Origin: Methanothrix sp.
GTDB taxonomy: Archaea > Halobacteriota > Methanosarcinia > Methanotrichales > Methanotrichaceae
DNA: 37,483 nucleotides
Assembly (NCBI GenBank): GCA_030611205.1
Contig: JAUWQF010000007.1
Coordinates: forward strand, 1 to 37,483
Reading direction: 5' to 3'
The translations under genes and the position numbers were made by a program. Positions within the stretch are counted from its first letter, which is position 1; every line of letters starts with the position of its first letter. The notes under the pieces were generated by a model. The model saw only the letters and a list, made by a program, of their open reading frames with translations, ran no database searches and was not told where the DNA came from. Positions 21,905-37,483 of the stretch are shown here, one piece after another.

Positions 21905-22260
21905 TACTATGATTACCGAAAGTCCTGAATGAGTATTTCGTCCGCAGGGAATAATGGGGTGATGGGTGGGAGCTGCGAGGAGCTCGAGGGCGTACAGACG
22001 AAGAAGGGCGCCGGGGCATGGCATGCAGTCATATCTTCCGGGCTGTGGGCTGTGGATGGCCTCTCGGCTTCGATGGGGCCACGGCTTTTCAGCCATGGAA
22101 GGCTCAACCGCCTCGGCTGCCTGGATCTCGCATACTCGGGTTCTCTCTGAGCATCGCCGTGCTGCCGCATGCGTACGAGGCGAAAGCACGCGCCAGAGCC
22201 TTCAGCTCCGGAAGGCGGCGCCGGGATCGTGCGTGGGCCGGGTATTTCGGCCACAGGGTG
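21905..22260. other. GC-rich block of unknown origin joined to a transposase relic
   Basis: About 355 bases, clearly GC-richer than the AT-rich sequence to its right. The frames that stay open show arginine-, proline- and serine-rich translations with no recognised domain, so I do not call a gene. The reading frame of the transposase relic runs into it at about 22260 and from there loses similarity, marking a recombination junction. It contains the hairpin-bearing repeat-like segment listed at 22067. Confidence 0.45.
22067..22107 (-). repeat. Possible solitary CRISPR-repeat-like sequence with hairpin
   Basis: On the minus strand the segment reads GGTTGAGCCTTCC, ATGGCTGAAAAGCCGT, GGCCCCATCGAAGC in succession. 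It contains the stem CCATGGCT/AGCCGTGG (one G:T) around GAAA, and ends in GGCCCCATyGAAGC, an ending I remember from some CRISPR repeats. There is no second copy in the window and no cas gene, so it is at most an orphan relic. Confidence 0.25.
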
Positions 22261-22737
22261 GAAGGGGTGCAACACGACGATAGCACCTGCTGTTAAGTTC
22301 CCGTTTCTGTGCTTGTGTGAAATCGTGTCGTTGATTGCTTGGATTGCCGCATCCATCAAAACTTTAAGCAAAAAGCGATTTCCCCTTACAATCAGCCACA
22401 GAGCATCTGGAATCGTGAGTACCGCATGTCGATGTGGCACATTGAACATTGTTTTCTTGAGGGACTTGGCCCATTTATCGGTGTGATTCTTGCCACAATT
22501 CGTACAGATGCGACTATTACACCCAAAGTGAACTGTTACAAAGGTCCCACAGGATTCACATCTGTATACGAAGAAGCCCCGACTCTCATCCTTGCAGGAT
22601 AGCATCTTCTCAACCTCTTTGATTTCAACATCGCGAAGGTTGGCACTTTCCGCTAGGCGAAACATATCCCAGTTATGATTGTCCTCGAAGATGCGTTTGA
22701 CTGTAAGAGGGCCACTGGTGAAACACGTTCCAGGCAT
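22261..22737 (-). mobile_element. Truncated IS91/Y2-type transposase relic
   Basis: 159 aligned residues from the ATG at 22737. A zinc-ribbon transposase N-terminus is visible: YRCESCGTFVTVHFGCNSRICTNCGK (C60, C63, C73, C78, C81), then KKTMFNVPHRHAVLTIPDALW and GAIVVLHPF. In complete relatives this continues into GRDxxxNPHxH and the catalytic tyrosine region; here homology stops after LHPF and the frame enters the GC-rich block. So only the N-terminal third remains and it cannot transpose. Inverted ends were not found. Confidence 0.75.
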
Positions 22738-22856
22738 AGAGACACCTGATTGCAACAGTACAATGTATAGATGGATATTATTAAAGGTTACTGTCTTATT
22801 GGGCAAAAGTTATAGTGTATATACGATTCAAAAAATATGGCTGTCGAGATGACAGT

Positions 22857-23084
22857 ATGACAGAGAAGAGGCTATTACCGGTATCGGGTAAACAGATGGT
22901 CAAGGTCTTTATAAAAACAGGGTTCCAAATAAACAGACAAAAAGGCGGTCATATAATAATGTAGAAGGGTGATATCATACTGGTAATACCCAACCATGAT
23001 ACTGTTGCTAAAGGGACAGAAAGAGAGCTAATAAAGGATGCTGGCCTCACCGTCGAGGAATTCAATAGATCGCTGAAAAAATAG
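22857..23084 (+). pseudogene. hicA: HicA-type toxin gene interrupted by one in-frame amber codon
   Basis: Reading from the ATG at 22857 gives MTEKRLLPVSGKQMVKVF, IKTGFQINRQKGGHIIM, then TAG (22962-22964), then in the same frame KGDIILVIPNHDTVAKGT and ERELIKDAGLTVEEFNRSLKK, stop TAG at 23082-23084. The two parts align end to end with HicA mRNA interferases: SGK helix, RQKGGHxIM with the catalytic His, VIPNH strand, and the AGLTVEEF end. The amber codon replaces what is normally Lys/Arg, one base from AAG. Since rqcH, ftsZ and uvrA here also end in TAG, TAG is an ordinary stop and the toxin is most likely inactivated; pyrrolysine readthrough is the alternative. No hicB was found; the transposase relic lies on the left. 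Confidence 0.8.
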
Positions 23085-23187: not shown

Positions 23188-23682
23188 TTACTCTGCTGAT
23201 GGGCATTCTAAAGAGCTTGGTGCATCTTGGGAAGATCTACCAATCACATTCTTTTTTATTTGAATAAGAAACTTGCCTAAATCATCAAAGTTTCTAGCGA
23301 TCCTATTGTTCAGCACACCTACAATTAGCGGATTATCTAAGTCGGACATAAGGGCTCTTGTGTCTGTTTTCAGACCAATACATTCTTTTCCAATTGCACA
23401 AGCGTATCCGACTTCGACACAAGCACCTTCGTCGGGGACTCTACCATCCAAAACTAAAACCACAATATCTGATTTTTGAATCTCTTCTATGTCCCTGCTG
23501 AATATTTGGCTAGTAGCGAGTGGTATGGATAACCCATCATCTAATAATTCTGATAGCTTATAACCATCGCGTTGTGGCAGAAATGTTCGAAACCCTAGTC
23601 CTACAAGGAATTTATCTAAGTGCTTATTATATTGTATCTCAGCTTCTGAAAATAACGGCCCTGCAATATATATTCTTAGCAT
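23188..23682 (-). CDS. Nucleoside 2-deoxyribosyltransferase family protein
   Basis: 164 aa from the ATG at 23682. It begins MLRIYIAGPLFSEAE, the family N-terminus, and has SDIVVLVLDGRVPDEGACVEVGYACAIGK, which holds the Asp of LDG (79) and the probable nucleophile Glu90. These enzymes cleave or exchange the base of 2'-deoxynucleosides or monophosphates. The gene follows the dGTPase by 19 bases on the same strand, so the two likely form an operon acting on deoxynucleotides. Base composition is much AT-richer than the flanking core genes, a sign of transfer. Related folds occur in nucleotide-based defence systems; that role here is inference. Confidence 0.85.
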   Translation of the reverse strand: MLRIYIAGPLFSEAEIQYNKHLDKFLVGLGFRTFLPQRDGYKLSELLDDGLSIPLATSQIFSRDIEEIQKSDIVVLVLDGRVPDEGACVEVGYACAIGKECIGLKTDTRALMSDLDNPLIVGVLNNRIARNFDDLGKFLIQIKKNVIGRSSQDAPSSLECPSAE

Positions 23683-23701
23683 GATTGTCAAACAGCCCCC
23701 A

Positions 23702-24892
23702 CTAATGTGTTTCTTTATATGTACGAACTTTCTTAGGAAAAATAATTTCCTTAAGTACCATCTCGAAATACCTGTCTGTCATACCGGCTATATAATCTCT
23801 CACTTTTTCAGCATTGTTTGATTTGTCAAGATATTTCTCATCAATCCAACCTTGGGGATTGTTCTTTGATAAACAAACAAAATCACCATATATTCTAGAT
23901 TCGCGCCTCTTGTTTTCCAGATCATCTAAAAAGAATTTATAATGAATGTCATACATGGTCTTGATCCGATCCTTATCGGCCAACAATTTTTCATGTCTGT
24001 AAATTATATCATAGTTAAACTTTAGAAGCTTCCTCACACGATCTGAAACATCTCTCGAATATGAGATATAATTACATCCATAGCTATGTTCAATCAAGTC
24101 GATGATGAGTTTATTTATTATCGTTCTATTCATTTCTTCTTTGTTGTCTTGATCAGATATGCCAATAAGTTCTTTACAGTCCGTTGGTATATCTACACTT
24201 TCTATAAGTCCTATTTCCATCGCATCTTGGATATCTCTCCCCAAATATGCTATTGTGTCTGAAAATCTTACGACACATCCTTCCAGCGTCATAGGAACTA
24301 TGTCATTTATGTTTTTCTTGGTTATCGCATTAAATTCTTTATAGAAATCATCCCAATCTTTGCCACCATTTGGCACTAGTTTTTGTTTAGGCTGTTCACC
24401 ATTATGACATAAAATACCATCTAGAACCTGAAGTGTCAAATCGCGGTCTTCAATAACGTCAAGAAACTGAACACTTTGAGCATTGTGGGCAAAACACCCA
24501 ATATTATTTTTATTGCATAATTCTGATAAGACCTCTTCACCAATATGGCCAAATGGTACGTGACCTATATCATGACCCAAGGAGATCGCCTCGATAAGAT
24601 CTTCGTTCAACTTAAGAGCCCGGCCGATAGTCCTTGCTATCTTTGAGACAAGTTGGACATGAAGGACCCTGTGTGTAATGTGGTCATTATCCACCGCAAA
24701 AAATACTTGTGTTTTATCAATATATCTCGAATATGCGTGCGTGTGTATAATCCTATCACAATCTCTTGAGTACCTGGACCTGATATCATCGGGTTCTGCT
24801 AATTTTCGTAATCCGTCCTCGCTCTTAGATGCAAATTTTGATAAACAACGCTCCTCCCTCATCTTAATATAAGTTTTAATCTGTTCTTCCAA
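23702..24892 (-). CDS. dGTPase-like HD-domain deoxynucleotide triphosphohydrolase
   Basis: 396 aa. RSRYSRDCDRIIHTHAYSRYIDKTQVF, then THRVLHVQLVSKIAR (H78), SLGHDIGHVPFGHIGEEVL (H107, D108, H111, H116), FAHNAQS and VVRFSDTIAYLGRDIQDA match dGTPases, which release tripolyphosphate from dGTP. The start is a TTG at 24892 with GGTGA from the apgM end about 10 bases upstream; an ATG at 24862 is a possible alternative. The AT-rich composition begins exactly after apgM, so the gene is part of the island. Bacterial dGTPases can act in phage defence by draining dGTP; pairing with a deoxyribosyltransferase makes that plausible here. Confidence 0.87.
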   Translation of the reverse strand: MEEQIKTYIKMREERCLSKFASKSEDGLRKLAEPDDIRSRYSRDCDRIIHTHAYSRYIDKTQVFFAVDNDHITHRVLHVQLVSKIARTIGRALKLNEDLIEAISLGHDIGHVPFGHIGEEVLSELCNKNNIGCFAHNAQSVQFLDVIEDRDLTLQVLDGILCHNGEQPKQKLVPNGGKDWDDFYKEFNAITKKNINDIVPMTLEGCVVRFSDTIAYLGRDIQDAMEIGLIESVDIPTDCKELIGISDQDNKEEMNRTIINKLIIDLIEHSYGCNYISYSRDVSDRVRKLLKFNYDIIYRHEKLLADKDRIKTMYDIHYKFFLDDLENKRRESRIYGDFVCLSKNNPQGWIDEKYLDKSNNAEKVRDYIAGMTDRYFEMVLKEIIFPKKVRTYKETH

Positions 24893-24900
24893 TCATTGAT

Positions 24901-26085
24901 TCATTCACCCACCATCCTCCCCACAAGCTCCCACCCCATCATCCTCTCGCCCCCCCGCTCCTCGGCCTCCCTCTCGCTGAACCTCCGCATCTCGTCGGCC
25001 TCGACACCAGCGCCCACAATCGCAAAGGGCACCGGCTCCGCGGTGTGAGTCCTCAGAGCAACAGGCGTGGGATGATCGGGAAGGACGCAGACCCGCCACT
25101 CGTAGCCGGACCCTCTCAGCCCCTCCAGAACAGGCGCCACGACCCGGGCGTCGAAGCGCTCGATGGCCTCTATCTTCTTCTCCAGGTCGCCGTCGTGCCC
25201 CATCTCGTCCGGCGCCTCCACGTGCAGATAGACGAAGTCCACCCTGGCGAGGGCGTCCAGCGCCGCGCGCACCTTCCCCTCGTAGTTGGTATCCAAGAGA
25301 CCGGTGGCACCTGGAACATCTATGACCTCCATACCGGCGCTTTTTCCGATGCCCTTGAGCAGGTCCACCGCAGAGATCATCGCTCCTTTGATCCCCCGCA
25401 TCTCCCGGAACCGGGGCATATTGGGCGCTTTTCCCTGGCCCCAGAGCCAGATCATGTTCGCAGGACGCTTGCCCTCTGCGATACGCTTTTGGTTGACGGG
25501 ATGCCGGGCCAGCAGGGGCACCGACGCTTCCATCATAGCTCTCAGGATATCGGACCCTTCGCCTCTGGGAAGATGGTCCTTGATGGGCTGGCCCATTATG
25601 TCATGGGGCGGGGTGCACTCTGCGCTCTCGCCTTTCCTCAAGACCAGAAGGTTCCGGTAGCCTACCCCAGGGCGGAGCTCACCTTGAGAACATATCTCTT
25701 GCAGCGATGCTACGATCTTCCCGTTCTCCTCGGTGGTGATGTGACCTGCGCTGTAGTCCACCATCTTGCCGGTCTCCAGGTCCACGTTCACCAGGTTGCA
25801 CCTGAACGCCACGTCTTCCTCGCCGAGGATAACATTCATGGCCGCCGCCTCCAGCGGTGCCCTCCCGCTGTAGTACCGGCGAGGGTCGTAGCCCATCACT
25901 GATAGGTTGGCCACATCGCTCCCCGGCGGCATCCCCTCGGGCACCGTGGTTGCCAGCCCGCCTTTGCCCAGGGCCGCCACCTCATCCATACCCGGCGTAC
26001 GGGCCGCCTCCAGAGGCGTCTTCCCATCCAGAGACTCGATGGGATGGTCGGCCATCCCGTCCCCCAGTAGTATCACGAACTTCAT
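24901..26085 (-). CDS. apgM: 2,3-bisphosphoglycerate-independent phosphoglycerate mutase, archaeal type
   Basis: 394 aa from the ATG at 26085 (MKFVILLGDGMADHP). GSDVANLSVMGYDPRRYYSGRAPLEA contains the region of the phospho-accepting Ser; NMIWLWGQGKAPNMPRF, HVEAPDEMGHDGD and LPDHPTPVALRTHT are metal-site motifs of the alkaline-phosphatase superfamily. It interconverts 3- and 2-phosphoglycerate in glycolysis and gluconeogenesis. The same frame stays open upstream through the mcrC gene, but similarity begins at MKFV; an in-frame ATG at 26094 is possible. mcrC ends 14 bases upstream. Confidence 0.95.
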   Translation of the reverse strand: MKFVILLGDGMADHPIESLDGKTPLEAARTPGMDEVAALGKGGLATTVPEGMPPGSDVANLSVMGYDPRRYYSGRAPLEAAAMNVILGEEDVAFRCNLVNVDLETGKMVDYSAGHITTEENGKIVASLQEICSQGELRPGVGYRNLLVLRKGESAECTPPHDIMGQPIKDHLPRGEGSDILRAMMEASVPLLARHPVNQKRIAEGKRPANMIWLWGQGKAPNMPRFREMRGIKGAMISAVDLLKGIGKSAGMEVIDVPGATGLLDTNYEGKVRAALDALARVDFVYLHVEAPDEMGHDGDLEKKIEAIERFDARVVAPVLEGLRGSGYEWRVCVLPDHPTPVALRTHTAEPVPFAIVGAGVEADEMRRFSEREAEERGGERMMGWELVGRMVGE

Positions 26086-30425: not shown

Positions 30426-30486
30426 AACATATACAACAAAAAATTTGCCGCAATGTGGGGGTTGCTCGTTGAGCAGAAGGAATTTT

Positions 30487-32754
30487 ATGCATAAGTCCCA
30501 GCAGATTACGCTTGAGGGTGTATCCCTCTCTATCATGCCCAAGGTCAGGACCACCGACGGTCACCTCATGGACTGGAACCGAGAGGCGATAGTGAAACAG
30601 CTCCTGAAGGAGACAAAGTTATCCGAACAGTTCTACAAGGCGTCCGGAATCTCCGAAGAGGAGGCGAAAGAGATCGCCAAAGAGACGGAGCGCCGGATCA
30701 GGTGGATGGACGTGAAGTTCCTCAGCGGTCCTCTGGTCAGGGAGATCATGAACGTCATCCTCCTGGAAAGACACCACCTGGAATGGAGGAATATCTGCAC
30801 CCGGGTGGGCACACCGGTCTACGATGCCCATCTGATCGACGTGGGCTCGGGTTTCGAGGCCAACGAGAACGCCAACCTCCAGGAGAACGCCGAGACCAGC
30901 CACAAGAAGAAGGCAGACAAGATATCCAAGGAGCAGTACCTCCTGTTAATCCCGCCCTACCTGGCCGACCGCCACCTGACCGGAGATCTTCACATCCACG
31001 ACCTGGAATACTTTGGGACTCGCCCATTTTGCCAAGATTGGGACCTACGATATTTCTTTTATTACGGTCTAATGCCCGACGGGACGGGGACCAGATCGAG
31101 CGTGGCCGGTCCTGCCAGGAAGGCGGAGGTGGCCATCCTTCACGCGGTGAAGGCCCTGGGATCTGCCCAGACCAACTTCGCAGGGGGACAGGGTTTCTAC
31201 AACTTCCTGACCTTCATCGCCCCCTACTTCGAGAATCACTCCAAAGAGGAGATCTACCAGCTCATGCAGATGTTCGTCTACGAGATGACCCAGATGATGG
31301 TGGCCAGAGGCGGCCAGGTGGTCTTCTCCTCGGTCCAGCTCAGCCCCGGGGTTCCCAAGCTGTGGCGGGAGATGCCCGTGGTGTACAAAGGCAAGATCTG
31401 GAACGGTGAACAAGCGCCTCTGCGCACCTACGGCGAGTTCGAGCGCGAGGTGAGGCTGGGCTTTGAGGCCCTGATGAAGGTCATGCAGGCGGGAGATTAC
31501 TGGGGCAAGCCCTTCAACTTTCCCAAACCGGAGATCAGCATCGAGCCCGACTTCATAGAGGAGGACGAGGAGTTCAACGCCGCCAACCCTGACATGCCCT
31601 CTTACAGGGACCTGTACCTTCTCACCTTCGAGCTCGCCGCCAAGTACGGCACCCCCTATTACGACAACCAGCTCCCGGCCTATCGAGGTGCGGGCAAAGG
31701 GATATCATGCTATCAATGCTGTGCCTATCAGTTCGCAGCCAACTCCGATAACGACGACATGTTCGACGAAAAGATGCATTTCAAAGATGGCATGCACTTC
31801 TCCATGGGGTCCTGGCAGGTGGTATCCCTCAACTGTCCCCGGGCCGCCTACCTGGCCAGGGGGGACGACGAGCTCCTCTTCGAGTATCTGCGAAACCTCA
31901 TGGACGTCGCCGTGGACATATTCAAGGTCAAGAAAGAATGGATGGATCAGGTGGTGAGGAACAAGAGGATGCCCTTCGCCACCCAGCGACCGAAGGACCC
32001 CCACACAGGGCAGAAAGGGACCGTGGCCGTGGACCTCGACGGCCTGGTCTATACCATCGGCGTGGTAGGCGTCAACGAGATGGTCCAGTTCCATACCGGC
32101 CACCAGCTGCACGAGTCCAAAGATGCCTGGAAGCTGGCGGTCCGGGCCATGACCGAGATGGAGCTCTACTCCAAAGAGCTGAGCGCGCGCCATGGCATAA
32201 CCATCGTCCTGGCGAGAACCCCTGCCGAGACCACCGTCCAGAGGTTCGCCGTCTCGGACCTGATCCATGACGAGTTCAGGGAGCACGCCGAGAAGGTGGT
32301 CAAGGGTGACCTTGCGACCGCCCTGGCCTCCGTTCACAAGACGCGCGATCTGCCCGTCTATTACTCCAACGGGACCCATCTGCCACCCTCTGCAGAGGTC
32401 TCCATCTTCGAGAGGGCCCAAAAGGAGCACGTATTCTTCCCCATCGTGGACGGCGGAAATATATTCCACATATTCCTGGGCGAGGCCATGCCGGACCCTC
32501 AGGGCCTGATGGACTTCGCCATGAAGCTGGCCAAGAACACCCAGATCGGGTATTTCGCCTTCACCAGGGACATGACCGTCTGCCTCAACTGCTACCACGT
32601 GACTCCTGGCCTGAAGGAAGAGTGTCCCCGCTGCAGATCCGAGAACGTGGAGCAGATGAGCAGGGTGACCGGCTACATCCAGGCTGTCAGCGGCTGGAAC
32701 GCCGCCAAGAAACAGGAACTAAAGGATAGGAAACGATATTCAGAGCTGGCGTGA
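30487..32754 (+). CDS. nrdD: Anaerobic (class III) ribonucleoside-triphosphate reductase
   Basis: 755 aa from the ATG at 30487, preceded by AGAAGGAATTTT; an ATG at 30535 matches the conserved beginning too. The N-terminal 100 residues resemble an ATP-cone (VRTTDGHLMDWNREAIVKQLL, MDVKFLSGPLVREIMNVILL). The barrel includes DLHIHDLEYF, FYNFLTFIAPYFE and SCYQCCAYQF; the C-terminus has the zinc site CLNCYH...CPRC and the glycyl-radical loop RVTGY (Gly about 729). It reduces NTPs to dNTPs without oxygen. The activating radical-SAM protein NrdG is not adjacent. Site D lies upstream. Confidence 0.96.
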   Translation: MHKSQQITLEGVSLSIMPKVRTTDGHLMDWNREAIVKQLLKETKLSEQFYKASGISEEEAKEIAKETERRIRWMDVKFLSGPLVREIMNVILLERHHLEWRNICTRVGTPVYDAHLIDVGSGFEANENANLQENAETSHKKKADKISKEQYLLLIPPYLADRHLTGDLHIHDLEYFGTRPFCQDWDLRYFFYYGLMPDGTGTRSSVAGPARKAEVAILHAVKALGSAQTNFAGGQGFYNFLTFIAPYFENHSKEEIYQLMQMFVYEMTQMMVARGGQVVFSSVQLSPGVPKLWREMPVVYKGKIWNGEQAPLRTYGEFEREVRLGFEALMKVMQAGDYWGKPFNFPKPEISIEPDFIEEDEEFNAANPDMPSYRDLYLLTFELAAKYGTPYYDNQLPAYRGAGKGISCYQCCAYQFAANSDNDDMFDEKMHFKDGMHFSMGSWQVVSLNCPRAAYLARGDDELLFEYLRNLMDVAVDIFKVKKEWMDQVVRNKRMPFATQRPKDPHTGQKGTVAVDLDGLVYTIGVVGVNEMVQFHTGHQLHESKDAWKLAVRAMTEMELYSKELSARHGITIVLARTPAETTVQRFAVSDLIHDEFREHAEKVVKGDLATALASVHKTRDLPVYYSNGTHLPPSAEVSIFERAQKEHVFFPIVDGGNIFHIFLGEAMPDPQGLMDFAMKLAKNTQIGYFAFTRDMTVCLNCYHVTPGLKEECPRCRSENVEQMSRVTGYIQAVSGWNAAKKQELKDRKRYSELA

Positions 32755-35302: not shown

Positions 35303-35707
35303 TCAGCTACCTATTTCTGGAAACCTTTCTACATAGGGTTGCACAGTTTTCAATTTAGGGATGGCTGCATAATGCTTCTGGTTGAAAGTGCATAGAGGTA
35401 AATTCAAAGCCACCGCTATCTGACCAATCAGGGCATCGAGAATCCCAAGCCCGTCGCTAAGATGATAACGGGCAAATACAGACAACGCCTCATCACACAT
35501 CTCCGGTGAAGGCCAAGCCACGCCATAAGCTCCCAAGATCCTTTTCACCTTCTCTTGCTCAGCCTTGTTTCTACAGCCCTGAACCAGCTCCATGACCACA
35601 AATCCGGGCAGAATGATCTCCACTCCACCGAGGGAATTCAACCAAGCCACAGCAGGCAGGTATTCACGCAAAAGGTCGACCATCACATCGGTATCTACAA
35701 GAATCAT
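35303..35707 (-). CDS. vapC: VapC-type PIN-domain ribonuclease toxin
   Basis: 134 aa. MILVDTDVMVDLLR gives the first acidic residue (D5), VVMELVQGCRN the second (E40), and ILDALIGQIAVALNLPLCTFNQKHYAAI the third (D91) and the C-terminal pattern with Asn109 where Asp is often found. PIN toxins cut specific tRNA or rRNA. The ATG is 3 bases after the antitoxin stop, with GAGGATAAGG upstream. Lower GC than the core genes, within the right-hand accessory stretch. Confidence 0.9.
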   Translation of the reverse strand: MILVDTDVMVDLLREYLPAVAWLNSLGGVEIILPGFVVMELVQGCRNKAEQEKVKRILGAYGVAWPSPEMCDEALSVFARYHLSDGLGILDALIGQIAVALNLPLCTFNQKHYAAIPKLKTVQPYVERFPEIGS

Positions 35708-35710
35708 ACC

Positions 35711-35968
35711 TTATCCTCGCCGCCGTTGTGCTTGCTCACGGAGTTGACGTGCATAAGCTGCACTATCCTCGATATCCTCGCGATCTCTCCAAAGCCCAAT
35801 CAGTCCGGAATGGATCATCTGACGGGCTGTCAAATGAGGATGCCTAAGCACAGCCGATGGTTCAATCAGCACGATCATCTCTACATACTGTCCTTTCTTA
35901 CAGGGCAATCCTGTTACAAAGATTTCACCATCCCTCTCAACAACCTTGTTAAGACGAATTGCTTCCAT
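35711..35968 (-). CDS. vapB: VapB-type antitoxin
   Basis: 85 aa. Located just upstream of vapC on the same strand, the normal order. EIFVTGLPCKKGQYVEMIVLIEP is a short strand-rich N-terminus, and a charged helical C-terminus (WRDREDIEDSAAYARQLREQAQRRRG) would bind the toxin. The DNA-binding type is not clear from sequence. GGAGGTGAGGG before the ATG is a strong ribosome binding site. Confidence 0.8.
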   Translation of the reverse strand: MEAIRLNKVVERDGEIFVTGLPCKKGQYVEMIVLIEPSAVLRHPHLTARQMIHSGLIGLWRDREDIEDSAAYARQLREQAQRRRG

Positions 35969-36692: not shown

Positions 36693-36711
36693 GACTTACG
36701 TAGGACTTACG
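36690..36711. repeat. Tandem 11-mer at the edge of the IS701-type element
   Basis: TAGGACTTACG occurs twice in direct succession (36690-36700, 36701-36711), followed by CAGTTGAG. GGACTTACGCAGTTGA is probably the element's terminal repeat, and the transposase stop codon lies inside the second copy. The first copy may be a duplication made during insertion or end slippage. Confidence 0.55.
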
Positions 36712-37483
36712 CAGTTGAGTCTGTAGGCAACAAATAACGTGGATACTTTATATATGATTGTATGGAATCTCTTATAATCGATCTCTTGCTTTCGAACCAA
36801 CTCTTTTTCGTTTTCAGTCTCTCTAATTCTAACCTCAGAAATGCTCTCAGCGAGAACATTATATGAGCCCTCTGAGATTGAGCCCTTCGCGACTGACAGC
36901 GTTCTACGCCACAGAACTGCTTAATCCCTCTGTGATACTCTTCTATTTTCCAGGAGTTCTTTGCTAGATCTTTTCGATCTGTTTCTTTCATATCCAGTGC
37001 ATCAGTTGCCCAGTGTTCTGTGTCACTTTCTTTAGAGACTATCCGGAAAACCTTTACGAATCCATAAGCTTTCAGATGTACTGTCCCTCCTTCCGGAGGA
37101 ATTTCTACAGTATTGATCTGTACGTTCTTTGTATCGTCCGGGTTCACCAGACGGTTGCACTTCAACCTCGTCAACCAATTCCATCCAAATTTTCTAATAG
37201 TTTTGAGGTTATTCAGGCTAGTATACCAGCTGTCGAACATAACAAACTTCGGCTGGAAACCACGCTCTTTTGCACTGTGTAGCATATCCTGAAAATGATC
37301 GTTCTTGGTTTTTCCATCATTATGTATGTCGTAGATACGGAAATCAACAGGAATTATGGCATAGCCATCTGTCCAGACCAATGTAATCAAGTTGATACCA
37401 TTCACCGTCCGATGGTGCTTTCCACTCCAATGGCGATATACAAGATCCATCTTCTTGGCATAAGGCTTGTCCAAGGTTGTATC
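36707..37483 (-). mobile_element. IS701-type transposase, 5' part outside the window
   Basis: 256 codons plus more beyond the window edge, where the frame continues upstream as DTTL. RHWSGKHHRTVNGINLITLVWTDGYAIIPVDFRIYD, VMFDSWYTSLNNL with a catalytic Asp, NWLTRLKCNRLVNPD and WKIEEYHRGIKQFCGVERCQSRRAQSQRAHI with the catalytic Glu show a DDE transposase of the IS701/IS4 superfamily common in methanosarcinal genomes. The stop lies inside the terminal repeat. The visible part is intact, so the element may be active. It interrupts the DprA-like gene. Confidence 0.88.

Follow-up and report, generated by a model that had tools for sequence, protein, structure and literature searches.

A linked gene pair for a predicted dNTP triphosphohydrolase and a nucleoside deoxyribosyltransferase-fold protein in Methanothrix and other Halobacteriota

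The Methanothrix locus and its two predicted enzymes

The DNA analysed here, called the window throughout, is a stretch of 37,483 nucleotides from Methanothrix sp. Two genes lie on its minus strand behind the core gene apgM, in the order apgM, dNTPase, NDT (nucleoside deoxyribosyltransferase) (Table 1). The end of apgM is 8 bases upstream of the dNTPase, and the gap between the dNTPase and the NDT is 19 bases, counted from the ATG start of the NDT. GC content is 0.36 in the dNTPase and 0.39 in the NDT, compared with 0.56 in the window and 0.63 in apgM. This agrees with the original prediction, made from the letters of the DNA, of two AT-rich reading frames on one strand, 19 bases apart, between apgM and a zone of transposase and toxin relics; an IS91-type transposase, a HicA relic and apgM were all found. 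Part of the transposase sequence recurs at other places in the sister genome G237. At its low-GC end the window carries a PIN-domain protein gene, preceded by a small partner gene, and also a DDE transposase gene, which runs off the window end.

Table 1. Features of the gene pair and of its surroundings in the window
Feature	Position	Strand	Description
Truncated IS91-type transposase	21913..22806	-	Zinc-binding domain only; PF14319, 2.3e-21
HicA toxin relic	22896..23084	+	In-frame TAG at 22962; PF07927 matched by both halves
NDT-fold gene	23188..23691	-	167 aa from TTG 23691; likelier start ATG 23682
dNTPase gene	23702..24892	-	396 aa, TTG start; predicted HD-domain dNTP triphosphohydrolase
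apgM/dNTPase junction	24893..24904	-	ATG overlapping apgM stop, in-frame TGA (24893-24895), TTG
apgM (archaeal phosphoglycerate mutase)	24901..26085	-	Core flanking gene; PF10143/PF01676
nrdD	30445..32754		Anaerobic ribonucleotide reductase
PIN-domain protein and small upstream partner gene	35303..35968	-	Low-GC window end
DDE transposase	36707..37483	-	Low-GC end; runs off window end

The first protein contains the Pfam domains HD (PF01966) and HD_assoc (PF13286). Its closest PDB chain is 2dqb, the T. thermophilus dNTPase (2.2e-32), which is also the top Foldseek match of a predicted model of moderate quality (pLDDT 68). Residues H78, H107-D108, H116, E119 and D212 are intact, align with those of 2dqb and are invariant across 14 sequences; the HD metal-binding motif, the H..E catalytic dyad and the distal Asp of the dGTPase/TtdNTPase type are thus all present. 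The protein had been proposed to be a dGTPase. Membership of the HD dNTPase family holds, but specificity for dGTP does not follow. All NCBIfam dGTPase models match under their curated cut-offs, including NF041026 (antiphage_dGTPase) with 105.4 bits against a cut-off of 400, and the dGTPase model of PADLOC, which matches at 1.8e-50, is given without a cut-off. Because of the NCBIfam scores and the nearest solved relative, dNTPase is the safer name. The enzyme is predicted to convert dNTPs to deoxynucleosides and triphosphate.

The second protein matches PF05014 (E 1.9e-21) and the NDT of Desulfotalea psychrophila, 7o62, both by sequence (6.5e-23) and as the top Foldseek match (TMt 0.87-0.91). 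Y8, D67, D87 and E93 are kept and are invariant across 16 sequences, so that the protein has both the fold and the catalytic Glu, Asp and Tyr of PF05014 nucleoside 2'-deoxyribosyltransferases. Asp87 stands six residues before the catalytic Glu93, with the same spacing as in 7o62, 7m5h and 6evs, and an Asp at this position points to nucleosides, rather than monophosphates, as substrates. The NDT would be expected to cleave deoxynucleosides to base and deoxyribose, or to swap bases. Many relatives also carry NDTs that are roughly 40% identical and lie outside the group of paired NDTs in the tree, and both kinds are present in many paired genomes. The paired NDTs form a group of their own, with weak deep support, and a copy of the ordinary archaeal NDT placed next to the dNTPase is therefore not favoured as their origin. 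Reverse transcriptase, as in a retron with an NDT-like effector, was absent from the ORFs scanned around the window pair.

Recurrence, transfer and decay of the pair

A search for the pair in other genomes had been proposed with the original prediction, and the idea that it occurs in the window alone can be rejected, since about 20 Halobacteriota genomes carry it, mostly with a 4-nt stop/start overlap. The same gene order in so many other genomes puts the adjacency far beyond chance. In Methanosarcinia, the class of the window, the dNTPase subfamily is present, intact or broken, in about 19 of 238 genomes, and an NDT lies directly downstream in nearly all carriers at 50-72% identity. Four genomes of family f11, which belongs to another class, also carry the dNTPase with a downstream NDT. 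In the class-wide set, G188 alone has an intact subfamily dNTPase without a downstream NDT, and a DDE transposase occupies its place. Conversely, all NDT copies at least 50% identical to that of the window (P0001) adjoin this dNTPase in the 48 genomes searched, and a broader search of the class found one orphan NDT, a decayed copy in G313. The overlap of 4 nt is seen at 12 of 15 dNTPase/NDT junctions, and translation of the two genes is therefore probably coupled. The dNTPase and NDT gene trees correlate with r = 0.91, a value reached in none of 2000 permutations.

In G011 (L058:7541-8485, minus strand) and G009 (L063:10662-11612, plus strand), the pair is followed on its own strand by a gene for a protein of 314-316 aa with a SEC-C tail, possibly a third component in this clade.

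The pair has moved between families and between classes. G025, of family f4, falls among copies from f5 in both the dNTPase and the NDT trees, G183 (f7) is placed with f6 in both, and the f11 copies are placed with the clade of the window in both. The distribution is patchy, even within a genus: in the family of the window the pair is absent from all other genomes searched, and in the class of G414 the NDT was found in 5 of 58 genomes. At all 13 other loci measured, the GC content of the pair is lower than that of its flanks, and the flanking genes vary between lineages. Searches of viral contigs, phages and plasmids gave no copy of the pair. Bacterial and archaeal species contigs scanned with P0002 gave one fragment of 48%, in a scan too insensitive to serve as a negative, and in a sample of 399 genomes of the phylum to which a Clostridia MAG belongs, the NDT alignment, run with no positive control, had no matches.

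Intact copies are under purifying selection, with dN/dS of 0.08-0.27 between close pairs of them, and decay is frequent. Breaks or truncations affect the dNTPase in G025, G120, G182, G031, G050 and the second copy of G183, and in the first four of these genomes the NDT beside it is intact. In G067 the NDT has a stop and in G188 it is replaced by the transposase, while the dNTPase of both is intact. A one-way toxin-antitoxin logic is not supported, because decay strikes either gene.

The window copy itself shows signs of decay, and it may be asked whether it is a passenger without present function, a question that concerns this copy, not the family, and is compatible with any reading of the family. 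In G237, whose apgM is 96% identical, all that remains of the dNTPase behind apgM is its 5' end, a short stub followed by unrelated sequence, and the contig stops 267 bases past apgM. Counted from the ATG that overlaps the apgM stop, codon 4 of the dNTPase is TGA in the window and CGA in the stub of G237, and the TTG immediately after the TGA is the only start left. Expression of the window dNTPase is uncertain because of this in-frame TGA. Its N-terminus is also shorter than those of its nearest relatives, and the transposase and HicA relics adjoin the pair. However, the 396 remaining codons are open and keep all catalytic residues, the NDT too is undamaged, and translation can start at TTG. 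We regard loss of function of the window copy as unlikely.

Neighbouring genes and the solo dNTPase

Several pair loci have neighbours of the defence type. The flanks of the pair hold DNA methylase and HerA-like genes in G048 and G067; HsdM, a DUF1016-like ORF (assigned by eye) and a HerA-like ATPase are present at the locus of G465; G060 has a HerA-like gene and G013 an AbiEi-like gene. HerA is a repair gene too in archaea. At other loci the neighbours are housekeeping genes, namely ilvD, hisS, fen1 and apgM. In a PADLOC tally, 122 neighbours of the pair matched 144 families compared with 97 for 122 neighbours of the solo dNTPase described below, a comparison in which single proteins match many models and many of the 97 control matches come from four kinase-like proteins, so that the difference cannot be read as enrichment.

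In three unrelated genomes, those of the window, G048 and G382, no more than about 7 kb separates nrdD from the pair. Linkage to nrdD as a rule was rejected, as it holds at these three loci only, and in most other paired genomes nrdD is far away or on other contigs. The nrdD genes of G239, G369, G380, G027 and G028 have open frames of 1170-1704 codons that match in pieces, probably because of inteins.

A homologue of the dNTPase, mostly 50-60% identical, is common in Methanomicrobia, where it was found in 83 of 135 good genomes. No NDT adjoins it at any Methanomicrobia locus checked, and no close NDT was found anywhere in the 28 solo-dNTPase genomes checked. Its sites are conserved within genera. 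The solo form thus looks housekeeping, in contrast to the paired form, which is patchy and mobile. Stable housekeeping contexts had been named as an observation that would count against the original prediction; they are seen at the genus-conserved sites of the solo dNTPase, not for the pair. Three paired clades are interleaved with solo lineages in the dNTPase tree, with weak deep support, and pairing may have had a single origin followed by losses or may have arisen repeatedly.

The original prediction of a defence role is borne out in part. The pair is recurrent, co-inherited, mobile and often degraded, and has defence-type neighbours at several loci. However, since the solo form is widespread, lacks the NDT and has genus-conserved contexts, the dNTPase per se is no defence marker in these archaea.

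Possible functions and comparison with known systems

We interpret the pair as an accessory module of two genes that moves horizontally and is most likely a nucleotide-depletion (antiviral) system, a reading to which we give a probability of roughly 45%. In the proposed mechanism, the HD enzyme, with its intact catalytic residues, would hydrolyse dNTPs, and the NDT, judging from its fold and active-site residues, would split the released deoxynucleosides into free base and deoxyribose or swap their bases. The substrate for rebuilding of dNTPs by virus or host kinases would thereby be removed. The product of the dNTPase would belong to the substrate class predicted for the NDT and would be handed over to it, which would account for the fixed order and coupling of the genes; the stop/start overlap implies that both enzymes would be synthesised together. 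By analogy with CloA and SAMHD1-type enzymes, activation on infection would probably be through allosteric sensing of raised dNTP, and depletion of the pool would then protect against the virus. It had been suggested that the NDT would make depletion irreversible. This is a matter of chemical reasoning only, because the NDT can swap bases besides hydrolysing.

The main rival is a mobile salvage module, an accessory cassette that is not under antiviral selection: its dNTPase would remove excess dNTPs, and its NDT would serve either to recover bases and deoxyribose or to restore the balance among deoxynucleosides. The solo housekeeping form of the same dNTPase and the proximity of nrdD at three loci, which fits a role in dNTP balance, favour metabolism, as do the ordinary neighbours at many pair loci. 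In Caulobacter, a homologue adjusts dNTP pools so that the cell cycle can progress (PMC12186491). In favour of defence are the mobility of the pair, its patchy distribution, its low GC and its decay; frequent decay, low GC and strong patchiness within genera are more typical of defence genes. Restriction or HerA-like genes beside several pair loci, and the distance of nrdD from the pair in most other genomes, likewise speak against salvage. We consider the salvage module a serious possibility, if a doubtful one.

A further reading takes the dNTPase as an effector that is held off or switched on by a small nucleoside signal which the NDT makes or removes. Clover provides a precedent, as it couples a dGTPase with an enzyme producing an inhibitory nucleotide (PMC12265719). 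A two-gene unit of a related NDT and a SIR2-family protein, found on an Eleftheria plasmid and a phage contig, suggests that NDTs of this type can partner different effectors, and the intact NDTs beside broken dNTPases in G025, G120, G182 and G031 are consistent with a regulatory partner. However, the intact dNTPases of G188 and G067, where the NDT is lost or broken, indicate that the NDT is no essential antidote there, and we think regulation of this kind improbable. Its boldest form would be regulated nucleotide-depletion immunity, with an archaeal dNTPase controlled by a nucleoside that the NDT makes, swaps or erases, by chemistry unlike that of Clover, as part of a wider theme of NDT-fold enzymes working with different effectors (dNTPase; SIR2-family). 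This we offer as speculation with a small chance of being right.

Nucleotide depletion is an antiviral strategy common to animals (SAMHD1) and bacteria (dGTPase, Clover). If the mobile dNTPase module of methane-cycling archaea is antiviral, it would extend the strategy to archaea and bring in a second enzyme, which may prevent the products from being salvaged or may regulate the dNTPase. The solo, apparently housekeeping form in Methanomicrobia and the paired, mobile form in Methanosarcinia and another class provide a natural comparison in which the effect of the NDT can be tested. The pair had been put forward as one not known as a described system, and the literature searched, with most subscription papers outside its scope, likewise contained no description of it or of a dGTPase or triphosphohydrolase operon with a deoxyribosyltransferase.

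Related NDTs occur in other gene neighbourhoods. In an IMG/VR contig (L154:6341-8456) and in the Eleftheria terrae plasmid NZ_CP106953.1 (L156:4280-6438), a gene for a SIR2-family protein overlaps the NDT gene that follows it. An alignment of the two SIR2 proteins covers about 515 residues at 34%, the records being distant, and PADLOC gives weak ThsA/LmuA matches alone for these units, which look like a separate two-gene conflict module. In the actinomycete plasmids L158 and L159, a related NDT is clustered with homologues of QueD, QueE and QueC (7-deazaguanine chemistry), which suggests a nucleoside natural-product pathway. Fusions of NDT domains to N-terminal domains of the Abi type have been predicted to be toxins (PMC3710099).

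The NDT of the window shares with other PF05014 enzymes (DpNDT 7o62, CtNDT, E. faecalis 7m5h) the fold, the nucleophilic Glu, the Asp at -6 and the N-terminal Tyr, and differs in belonging to a clade linked to a dNTPase. In bacteria, both an anti-phage dGTPase alone and a dGTPase with a partner enzyme (Clover) are proven defence systems (PMC12265719). The window dNTPase has the HD and H..E residues in common with anti-phage dGTPases (for example SpdGTPase of Shewanella putrefaciens CN-32; PADLOC dGTPase), as a member of the same HD superfamily of dNTP triphosphohydrolases, and the paired archaeal form is likewise accessory and patchy. Unlike them, it is shorter, nearer to 2dqb of T. thermophilus, archaeal and partnered with an NDT, and its antiviral role is putative. 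Clover, composed of the dGTPase CloA and the nucleotidyltransferase CloB, is also a two-gene operon of a dGTPase-type enzyme and a small partner acting on nucleotides or nucleosides, and CloA is a distant homologue of the window dNTPase (6.5e-10). However, CloB is a Pol-beta nucleotidyltransferase, whereas the dNTPase of the window has as its neighbours apgM and an NDT-fold (PF05014) enzyme of the glycosyl-transfer type.
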